Source: a virus
DNA length: 21,595 bases
Direction: 5' to 3' (one strand)
Virus record (IMG/VR): IMGVR_UViG_3300024999_000447
Coordinates: 1 to 21,595 of that record
In this document: piece after piece, positions 6,455 to 16,678 of the stretch
Position numbering within the stretch: position 1 is the stretch's first letter
Layout: every line of letters starts with the position of its first letter
Notes under the pieces: generated by a model
The model's input: the letters and a program-made list of their open reading frames with translations, nothing else
What the model was told of the DNA's origin: nothing
Databases searched by the model: none
Program-made: the position numbers and the translations under genes

Positions 6455-7477
6455 TTATTGAACTTCTTCTAATTTAGATTCAATATCATCCCTAATGCAG
6501 ATTAGGGCTTCAAATTGTTTGGCAGTCGCTTCTCCTACTCTTCCATCTTTACCAAGATGTTCTTCAACAATTTGAACATAATCATCCACTAAATCAAGTT
6601 CATCTAATTTAGCATACATTTCTTTAATTTCCTCAACTACACTTTCAAATGTTTCTTCAACTTTACCATAGATTTTTTGTTGTTCTTCAAAACTAACTCC
6701 AATATATCCTTCTGCTTCATTTTGCTTTTTTATACCATCAATAACTGTCTTCTCTAAATTTTCTGCTGAAAATTCTTCAATATATGTATCCATATATGTA
6801 AATCTACTTCTAGCAAAATAATCATCTGTTTCAGCTAAATAAGCCGAAGAGGGAATGACCCTTCCTTTATCATCAATTCCATTAGATTCCAGATAACATA
6901 CTATATCTGCATTATCTCTAATGGGTTTGATGTTTCTTTCATCTCCTTCAATGACATATTGATCTTTCTTTTTATCTAATCTTGCATGGCCTAAGAACGC
7001 AATAGTATATCCTAAACTAATTATTCCATCAACCCAAGTCCAAACTAAATTATCATACTCTTCCCAACATCCATATCCACCATTAGCCTTACCAATTGAA
7101 TCGACATCGTATTTAGCACAAAGATAATTTTTAACATATGTTCCTATTCGTTCAATACCATCTACTACTACAGTAATTTGTTCACCACTTTGTAACAATT
7201 GAACAAAATCTTTGCCAGCTAATTTTTTCCCGTTTTTCTTCAGGTCACTCCAATTTGCTGTTTTTAATGCAATGGCTCCATTAGTTGCATTAAGTCCTTT
7301 TTCTACTGGTAAGAAAATAGGATTTTTAAACTTTGCAGATTGAGACGTTTTGCCCACGTTGTTTCCACCATAAAGGACAATTACCTTCCCTCTTAAATCA
7401 GCAGAAACATGACTAACTTGAACGTCACCTTTAAAGTTTTTTTGTAACAATTCTTGTAACTTATCGGATATTGCCAT
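6455..7477 (-). CDS. RecA-fold AAA ATPase, Sak4-like recombination protein
   Basis: 340 residues. Seen: VIVLYGGNNVGKT at 32-44 with a Walker A P-loop GGNNVGKT; FLPVEKGLNAT at 55-65; Walker B-like VVVDGIERI at 103-111; and AFLGHAR at 160-166. This order matches the phage AAA_24/Sak4 group of RecA-like ATPases, which act in single-strand annealing and strand exchange, usually with an SSB; an SSB-like gene indeed lies directly upstream. The last 90 residues form an acidic helical extension beyond the ATPase core. The start is well supported by GGAGG with 8 nt spacing. Intergenic hairpins lie on both sides, which may set its expression apart from its neighbours. Another RecA-type ATPase function cannot be excluded. 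Confidence 0.8.
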   Translation of the reverse strand: MAISDKLQELLQKNFKGDVQVSHVSADLRGKVIVLYGGNNVGKTSQSAKFKNPIFLPVEKGLNATNGAIALKTANWSDLKKNGKKLAGKDFVQLLQSGEQITVVVDGIERIGTYVKNYLCAKYDVDSIGKANGGYGCWEEYDNLVWTWVDGIISLGYTIAFLGHARLDKKKDQYVIEGDERNIKPIRDNADIVCYLESNGIDDKGRVIPSSAYLAETDDYFARSRFTYMDTYIEEFSAENLEKTVIDGIKKQNEAEGYIGVSFEEQQKIYGKVEETFESVVEEIKEMYAKLDELDLVDDYVQIVEEHLGKDGRVGEATAKQFEALICIRDDIESKLEEVQ

Positions 7478-8542: not shown

Positions 8543-8712
8543 ATGTATTAATTCCTTCTTTCAATAATTTTATTTTATTATTTATTGCGCATGATTTATT
8601 AAAATATATTGAAAGAAGGTGGACTTAATCCTCGTTTAATTGCTTTCCAACCTGTGCCAGAATTCTTCAACTAACCAATCCTTTCTACAAAATATTATTT
8701 ATTTCAACCCAC
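8543..8712 (-). promoter_or_regulatory. Structured leader of the replication operon with a sequestered ribosome site
   Basis: From the predicted transcription start near 8712 to the ATG at 8542 lies an untranslated stretch of about 170 nt. On the minus strand CCTTCTTTCAATA (8619-8607) is perfectly complementary to TATTGAAAGAAGG (8566-8554). The second arm contains the AAGAAGG ribosome site of the SSB-like gene, so the folded form should block translation. The loop is 40 nt. Upstream, TTGAAGAA (8670-8663) could pair with the blocking arm through 8 bp with one bulged base and free the ribosome site. The upstream half (8620-8690) is less AT-rich than its surroundings. I do not recognise it as a known riboswitch class. 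Confidence 0.55.
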
Positions 8713-8718
8713 TTAATA

Positions 8719-8747
8719 ATTATACCATACTACAATTATCATGTCAA
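8719..8747 (-). promoter_or_regulatory. Promoter P3 of the replication operon
   Basis: Minus strand: TTGACA (8747-8742), 17-bp spacer, TATAAT (8724-8719), preceded by TG at the extended -10 position. This is a consensus sigma-A promoter and needs no phage sigma factor. AT-rich sequence upstream could act as an UP element. It points at the leader and the SSB-like gene. Confidence 0.85.
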
Positions 8748-8804: not shown

Positions 8805-8855
8805 AAGTACCGAACCCTGAAACTCGCTTATAGCTTAATTCTTGTTTTTATACTT
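8805..8855 (-). ncRNA. Repeated structured RNA-like element, copy 1
   Basis: The 34-nt core 8811-8844 is 30/34 identical to 16351-16384 in the same orientation. On the minus strand an outer helix AAGUAU/GUACUU (8855-8850 with 8810-8805) encloses a 5-nt spacer, CAA, an inner helix GAAUU/GGUUC (8841-8837 with 8816-8812) and a small GCU/AGC hairpin. Compared with copy 2 the outer helix shows compensatory changes. It begins inside the last codons of the gene at 8848-9552 and ends about 60 bp before promoter P3, so it is a 3'-end element of that transcript. I do not recognise the class. Confidence 0.5.
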
Positions 8856-9552
8856 TTGAACATTGCGTTGCGTATTTACTAAGTCCATTAATTAATTCTC
8901 TAAACTGTGACGAATCTTTATTAGATGAATCAACGGTAATATTAATTGTGATATTCTGAACAACATTTTCAACTTTTGTTTCTTCTACTACTTTCTCAAC
9001 CTCTTCAACCCAATCCCATTCTTCTGGTTCATTGCTATTTAAAACATCTGAAATAACTCTTGCACAACCGTTACGTTGTTTAATCGCTACAATATCATAA
9101 TCATCTGATTCATCTTGAAACAAATTATCACTATAATCATCAAGTAATATTCCATCACCACTATAACCTTCAGCAATATCAATTTTATCATAGAATATAA
9201 GATCACCTTCTATATCTGGGAGTAGAGCGTACAAAACATCATTTCTCATTTTGAAAAGCATTGAACTATTTAATTCTGATTTCTTCATTTTAATATTCCT
9301 ACTTTCATTATTATTATTTTGATTTGTATTACTCTCTATGTATAACTCAAAATCTTCTGGTAAGAAAAAATCACCAAAATCATCTTCGTTGTATTTCAAA
9401 ACAATTTTTTCATGATCAATTTTATATACAAATAAATATGGTTGATTTATTTCTTTTGCCATTTTCCAAACATAACTATTGTCTAAACTACCACACATAC
9501 TCTTTGAATGAGGTACTACTTTTTGAAATATCTCAATGTCTTCTCTTTTCAT
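8848..9552 (-). CDS. Phage protein of unknown function with two small modules
   Basis: 234 residues. The first module (about 1-75) contains MCGSLDNSYVWKMAKEINQ and ends FLPEDFELYIES. The second (about 84-155) has KMKKSELNSSMLFKMRNDV followed by ILLDDYSDNLFQ and YDIVAIKQ; this resembles a common small phage module of the type 'KSxLKxGMxVxxRNG ... DDL ... DIxxV'. A Glu/Val-rich linker and a Ser/Asn-rich tail follow. No enzymatic motif is seen. The ATG at 9552 has GAGGAG at an unusually long distance of 14 nt; an ATA codon and in-frame stop directly precede it. It is 10 nt after the upstream gene, and its stop codon lies within copy 1 of the repeated RNA-like element. Confidence 0.75.
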   Translation of the reverse strand: MKREDIEIFQKVVPHSKSMCGSLDNSYVWKMAKEINQPYLFVYKIDHEKIVLKYNEDDFGDFFLPEDFELYIESNTNQNNNNESRNIKMKKSELNSSMLFKMRNDVLYALLPDIEGDLIFYDKIDIAEGYSGDGILLDDYSDNLFQDESDDYDIVAIKQRNGCARVISDVLNSNEPEEWDWVEEVEKVVEETKVENVVQNITINITVDSSNKDSSQFRELINGLSKYATQCSKV

Positions 9553-16288: not shown

Positions 16289-16342
16289 AATTATCACTCT
16301 CCTCCTTTTTATTTTAAATTCCTTGGAAATCGACTTTTTAAA

Positions 16343-16398
16343 GGAAGTTACGAACCCTGAAAGTGGCCTATAGCTTGATTCTTGAAATCGCAACTTCC
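16343..16398 (-). ncRNA. Repeated structured RNA-like element, copy 2
   Basis: The core 16351-16384 is 30/34 identical to copy 1. On the minus strand GGAAGUUGC (16398-16390) pairs with GUAACUUCC (16351-16343) over 9 bp, with one G.U pair that would be an A-C mismatch in a plus-strand RNA, so the minus-strand RNA is the likely active form. Inside are the inner helix GAAUC/GGUUC (16381-16377 with 16356-16352) and a GCU/GGC mini-hairpin. It lies between two genes, 13 nt after the stop codon of the gene at 16412, and ends about 55 nt before the next start. Three U follow the stem, so weak termination is possible. Confidence 0.55.
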
Positions 16399-16411
16399 TG
16401 AAATATGAGAA

Positions 16412-16678
16412 TTAATCTACATTTGTTCCAATACAATTTGGAATTACTTCACACTCATTCATAATTTTTCTCCAAGATGTCATTTCCCCTTCATCTTCAA
16501 ATTCAACATCCAATGTTTTATTATCAACTAAATTAATAGTAAAACCATATTCAAATTGTGATTCGTCTTCTCCACAATAATCATGAACAAAGTAATCAAT
16601 TGCTTGAACAAGATTATTTGCTAAAATCCAATGCTCGTAATCACCATCATTAAATTTGTATAATTTTAACTCTTCCAT
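16412..16678 (-). CDS. Small conserved phage protein, unknown function
   Basis: 88 residues. KLYKFNDGDYEHWILANNLV at 5-24 and AIDYFVHDYCGEDESQFEYG follow a pattern seen in small phage proteins ('YeF.d.dY..WI.A.N...A......Y'), and the C-terminus (EDEGEMTSWRKIMNECEVIP) fits the same family. No catalytic motif. GGAGG with 9 nt spacing supports the start. It is followed by copy 2 of the RNA-like element. Confidence 0.7.
   Translation of the reverse strand: MEELKLYKFNDGDYEHWILANNLVQAIDYFVHDYCGEDESQFEYGFTINLVDNKTLDVEFEDEGEMTSWRKIMNECEVIPNCIGTNVD

Follow-up and report, generated by a model that had tools for sequence, protein, structure and literature searches.

Two copies of a conserved core behind stop codons

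The window, that is, the whole stretch of DNA analysed here, is a 21.6-kb IMG/VR phage fragment with an SPbeta-like replication module whose DnaB-type helicase shares about 30% identity with YorI of the SPbeta phages, and every real gene in it lies on the minus strand. Two of these genes end beside a repeated element. The first (8848..9552, minus strand) encodes a 234-aa protein of unknown function, and its stop codon (8848-8850) touches copy 1 (W1), which runs on the minus strand from 8855 to 8805 (RNA 5'-AAGUAUAAAAACAAGAAUUAAGCUAUAAGCGAGUUUCAGGGUUCGGUACUU). The second (16412..16678, minus strand) encodes 88 aa and ends about 13 nt ahead of the outer helix of copy 2 (W2; minus strand, 16398-16343; RNA 5'-GGAAGUUGCGAUUUCAAGAAUCAAGCUAUAGGCCACUUUCAGGGUUCGUAACUUCC), and both this gene and the copy 2 element are present in the relative L017. 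Downstream of copy 1, a perfect sigma-70-type promoter (TTGACA-17-TATAAT; 8719..8747, minus strand) lies ahead of an SSB-like gene. The interval between this promoter and the SSB-like gene holds a 23-codon ORF, MKNSGTGWKAIKRGLSPPSFNIF (8599-8670, minus strand), with related short ORFs at the equivalent position in L018 (MLIKMTSFGMKPIKRNKGPSSFNIF), L019, and L023; it may encode a small conserved protein or serve as a leader peptide. L020, a close relative of the window, carries an insertion of a TnpB-like gene (IS605 OrfB-type, by eye) close to where the short ORF ahead of the SSB-like gene ends (L020:2400-3700).

The conserved cores of copy 1 (CAAGAAUUAAGCUAUAAGCGAGUUUCAGGGUUCG; 8811..8844) and copy 2 (CAAGAAUCAAGCUAUAGGCCACUUUCAGGGUUCG; 16351..16384) were found on the minus strand to be identical at 30 of 34 positions, as a sequence-only reading of this stretch had described, and a repeat search grouped both copies as one family of 40 nt with 85% identity. 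Because a relaxed core pattern (up to three mismatches) gave exactly two matches in the window vs 0.00 expected in shuffles, the repeat is far beyond chance. That reading had also drawn an outer helix around each core, and the arms do pair as it wrote them, i.e. 8850-8855 with 8805-8810 and 16388-16399 with 16342-16353. On the minus strand, the putative helix of copy 1 joins the 5' arm AAGUAU (8850..8855), which overlaps the stop codon of the upstream gene, to the 3' arm GUACUU (8805..8810), and that of copy 2 joins AGGAAGUUGCGA (16388..16399) to UCGUAACUUCCU (16342..16353) in 11-12 pairs, more than had been proposed. When compared with shuffled flanks, the outer helix of copy 2 stood out (p = 0.002), whereas that of copy 1 was at chance level (p = 0.46), and the entire fold of copy 1 was no better than shuffles (z -1.32). 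Copy 2 folds with -21.3 kcal/mol (z -5.15) on the minus strand and with -16.1 kcal/mol (z -2.46) on the plus strand; since all real genes lie on the minus strand and copy 2 folds better there, the minus strand was taken as the RNA strand.

Relatives of the element in other phages

About nine further copies were recognised, by sequence alone, with a model built from four copies (R1) and with pattern scans, in five phage contigs related to the window (G001, G002, G009, G010, and G012, called G1, G2, G9, G10, and G12 below). They are the ortholog of copy 2 (L017/G2:62673), G1a (L013/G1:14985), G1b (G1:30581), G9a (G9:173556), G9b (G9:76650), which is inverted relative to the genes, G10a (G10:72778), the G12 copy (G12:33923), and the weaker G10b (G10:39538) and G10c (G10:31050), and all but the G12 copy come from metagenome 3300024999. 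The best-conserved stretch across the copies is AAGAAUNAAGCUAUARGC, in which N is any of the four bases. Full-length relatives of copy 1, alignable over up to 57 nt, were found at G9:149907, G10:113422, and G2:27819. Pattern scans, exact and relaxed, mostly hit coding sequence by chance in contigs richer in G+C, and these matches were discarded, and an apparent member in G15 was rejected because it is coding on the opposite strand. In the exact scans of IMG/VR and 85,000 bacterial genomes, the remaining matches were mostly coding or chance; the 49 core matches in the bacterial genomes are close to the chance estimate and include at most two possible members. A second model, R2, gave no match in nine bacterial genomes, which is weak evidence with 150 candidates scored per genome.

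Copy 1 is absent at the corresponding site in five relatives (L017, L018, L019, L020, and L021) and was therefore gained or lost recently, which is what a functionless, recently duplicated intergenic fragment would lead one to expect. The core, however, is found again in several phage contigs whose flanking sequences are otherwise unrelated, and the shuffles give zero expected matches, so that a mere duplicated fragment is very improbable. The element is real and previously uncatalogued, and it lies just behind stop codons in a group of related phages.

The sequence-only reading had argued against a conserved peptide, and the homologues bear this argument out. A relative, G2:27819, does lie within an ORF of 30 codons that a plausible ribosome-binding site precedes, but the frame in question (KNQAIGHFQGS) is interrupted by a stop in copy 1 (AAT TAA), core position 7 takes all four bases (CAA, TAA, AAA, GAA), the start codon is missing in several members, and in one overlapping ORF seven of nine changed codons are nonsynonymous. 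The element is thus unlikely to encode a peptide, and conservation of this particular short frame deserves hardly any credence. In the family formed by G2:27819, G10:113422, and G9:149907, an ORF of 22-30 codons (MEISKIKIVAGVGFQGSAHGIKHVF...) is overlapped in two of the three phages; the nonsynonymous share of its changed codons makes coding constraint on it doubtful.

Helices and folding

The ortholog of copy 2 in L017/G2 folds strongly (z -6.0 vs z -5.2 for copy 2) and keeps the outer helix with one G.U changed to A-U. Strong outer helices of three unrelated sequences surround one core in W2/G2, in G9a (AAAGUCCAA/UUGGACUUU), and in G12 (GAAUUGUCAUU/GAUGGUAAUUC), and a flanking-stem test on nine loci gave a combined p of about 3e-5, with the signal coming mainly from W2, G9a, and G12. 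The inner helix is 82% paired in a 15-sequence alignment and shows a few double changes (C-G to U-A in three sequences and C-G to A-U in one). These observations favour the earlier proposal that the window copies are a cis-regulatory RNA or a small RNA whose fold is conserved.

Several results speak against such an RNA. The outer helix was not found in G1a and G10a. G2:27819 and G10:113422, both closely related to copy 1, have GCACAU or GUACAU in place of the right arm GUACUU, and the left arm shows no change to match; this is in part the outcome, homologues with helices that do not covary, that the sequence-only reading had named as refuting it. Folding is unexceptional in most members, most measures in the 15-sequence alignment, pair changes among them, did not clearly rise above shuffles, and among 25 members the gene-sense and antisense strands fold equally well (Wilcoxon p = 0.39). 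Nor do the members have a downstream gene in common. Copies 1 and 2 thus do not serve as the proof of compensatory change for which they had been taken, the copy 1 helix being at chance level and its close relatives uncompensated. The evidence for an RNA conserved in shape is mixed, and a conserved fold is not established for the family, although the subset with strong helices (W2/G2, G9a, and G12) could have one; as an account of the whole family, a cis-regulatory or small RNA of this kind appears doubtful. From the initial proposal of an unrecognised cis-regulatory, processing, or small RNA, an unrecognised conserved element, probably non-coding, is retained, and its covariation is borne out only in part.

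Placement at gene ends

The placement of the element was surveyed with R2 over 606 kb of the phage group; this model was partly trained on these members but did not use orientation. Among 25 members with gene context, window copies included, 18 are sense and 7 antisense relative to the genes beside them, and each of the 15 best R2 members is sense (15/15). Of the 18 sense members, about 11 begin at most 30 nt from the stop codon upstream, and some overlap it. The upstream gene is common to W2 and G2 but differs for G1a, G1b, G9a, and G12, and the downstream genes vary as well, which indicates that the element is not tied to one gene. A separate motif, AATACATAA, is strongly overrepresented in the intergenic regions of G1, G2, G9, and G10 on the coding strand (31 occurrences vs 3 antisense, with 3.5 expected).

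The site of copy 1 is occupied by a different hairpin in L017 (UGUUGCUACAUAAGGGUUUGCGG) and L021 and by no recognised element in L018, L019, and L020, and in the comparison with L017 the homology of the window stops 16 nt past copy 2. This swap or absence of hairpins at one site and the break behind the other fit cassettes that are exchanged at gene ends.

Because of the sense bias and the placement at stop codons, a role at the 3' end of the transcript is the likeliest one, and our preferred reading, held tentatively, is a dispersed intergenic gene-boundary (3' untranslated) element of SPbeta-like phages that acts in the transcript and has been spread between gene ends by recombination. Each element would consist of about 35 nt of conserved sequence, often inside an inverted repeat whose own sequence is free, at or shortly behind the stop codon of a gene; in the transcript it may serve mRNA ending, processing, stabilising, or protein binding, and its copies would be duplicated and swapped between gene ends via recombination. 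The family itself, its placement, its sense bias, and the differing outer inverted repeats around one core are observed; the function in RNA and its mechanism we infer, against observations that point the other way, namely the lack of a terminator match, the lack of strand preference in folding, the inverted members (G9b; 7/25), and the common-type copies near origin repeats described below, which suggest a role in DNA.

A common hairpin of phages and plasmids

An uncatalogued hairpin of the form AAACCCUUG(A/C)UACAUAAGGGUUU is common in Firmicutes phages and plasmids, and, beside the window type, a second form, AAACC(C/A)UUGCUACANNAGGGUUU, occupies several gaps of the phages of the window group. 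Near-identical hairpins occur in phages of S. thermophilus, S. pneumoniae, Bacillus, Paenibacillus, and Leuconostoc, in 79 IMG/VR stretches, and on plasmids. A search with the real loop returned 197 records (163 of them covered to 80% or more) vs 63 (15) and 3 (0) with two scrambled loops; the loop sequence itself is therefore conserved.

The window type is joined to the second form, at orthologous gaps of G12, G9, and G10, through a chain of intermediates (W2-G12, p = 0.0005; G12-G9:34654, p = 0.0005; G9:34654-G10:22282, orthologous), by which the window copies can be aligned with the common type (AAACCCUUGNUACAUAAGGGUUU); the differing hairpins of L017 and L021 at the copy 1 site were counted towards this link too. 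A model of the common AAACCCUUGNUACAUAAGGGUUU hairpin that contained no window-type sequences (R3) listed neither window copy up to E = 10. Since the common-type model misses both copies, we only infer, through these sequence intermediates, that they belong to the common type.

The common type is very often found at gene ends: in 38 of 52 non-redundant IMG/VR cases a gene 3' end lies within 150 nt, and in 19 of 52 within 30 nt. The genes ending there include those for primases (5/36), integrases, terminases, and YonO-type polymerases (PF05183), classes absent among the families listed for the shorter control genes, a comparison made in PHROGs. In BUCT082, an SPbeta-like phage, a common-type element (6861-6887) precedes the HU gene. 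It also lies near integrases and in origin-like regions with direct repeats, and at least three direct-repeat copies are found near 17% of the elements vs 3% of control gaps, which were unmatched for gap length. As individual cases, the common hairpin adjoins direct-repeat arrays (iterons) in an origin-like region of Streptococcus phage 128 (L244:1496-1680) and stands beside iterons in origin-like regions of small Klebsiella, Enterobacter, and Acinetobacter plasmids (L332, L333, and L337).

The origin and integrase contexts, together with the inverted members and the equal folding of both strands, make a site acting at the DNA level the main rival to the transcript-end role. The element would then be a partly palindromic motif in double- or single-stranded DNA for a replication, recombination, or packaging protein, and its adjacency to stop codons would be a by-product of its intergenic location. 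In its favour are the common-type relatives near integrases and those in origin-like regions that adjoin direct repeats (in phages of Streptococcus, Leuconostoc, and Bacillus and in small iteron plasmids). We consider a DNA-level site rather unlikely, given the sense bias (18/25) in the phage group of the window and the fact that the gene-end neighbours are not just primases and integrases but also terminases, YonO-like RNA polymerases, and others; moreover, the relatives at origins would bear on the window copies through their presumed membership in the common type. A broader proposal, to which we give a low probability, treats the window copies as a diverged offshoot of a single undescribed element (AAACCCUUGNUACAUAAGGGUUU and its relatives) with a very wide distribution. 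This element would mark the ends of genes as well as origins in the phages and plasmids of many groups of bacteria, and a conserved host factor may recognise it as RNA or as single-stranded DNA.

If confirmed, the gene-boundary element would offer a sequence through which to study how SPbeta-like phages mark off and reshuffle their numerous small genes. It would also draw attention to a hairpin that is widespread at the gene ends and origins of phages and plasmids, is missing from Rfam, and is open to deletion and testing in Bacillus subtilis SPbeta.

Comparison with known systems

The sequence-only reading knew no riboswitch or ribozyme class with this core and, in agreement with it, a search against Rfam 15 gave no match at the gathering threshold; lax thresholds on the copies, their relatives, and common-type members yielded nothing credible. 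The nearest approach was a weak match of copy 1 to the Pistol ribozyme (RF02679; 16.7 bits, E = 0.27), far under the gathering score of 34.5, and copy 2 was not matched. A literature search for the hairpin sequence returned unrelated matches only. The 150-kb phage contig G010, which also carries window-type elements, contains a clear skipping-rope RNA (RF02924, 70.8 bits; L177:9994-10073, minus strand).

The element resembles intrinsic terminators in being a hairpin directly behind a stop codon, but no U tract follows either window copy and no terminator was predicted, which disfavours an ordinary intrinsic terminator for these copies; members of the common type that are flanked by A/U could terminate transcription in both directions.

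PeSLs, reportedly mobile regulatory cassettes of T4-type phages, are similar in being dispersed intergenic stem-loops between small accessory phage genes, where gene content changes. In a PeSL-type cassette promoter and stem-loop would move together, whereas no promoter module shared with the window-type elements was found; of the two window copies, copy 1 alone has a strong promoter behind it. A promoter tail (CATAAAA) common to the elements was considered and rejected, as CATAAAA-type tails are not enriched. PMC5467207 describes the YonO promoter sequence as yet to be determined.

A further likeness is to the common hairpin AAACCCUUG(A/C)UACAUAAGGGUUU: its G:C stem is lost in the window copies, but the central GCUA(C/U)A position, the placement at gene ends, and the intermediates connect the two.
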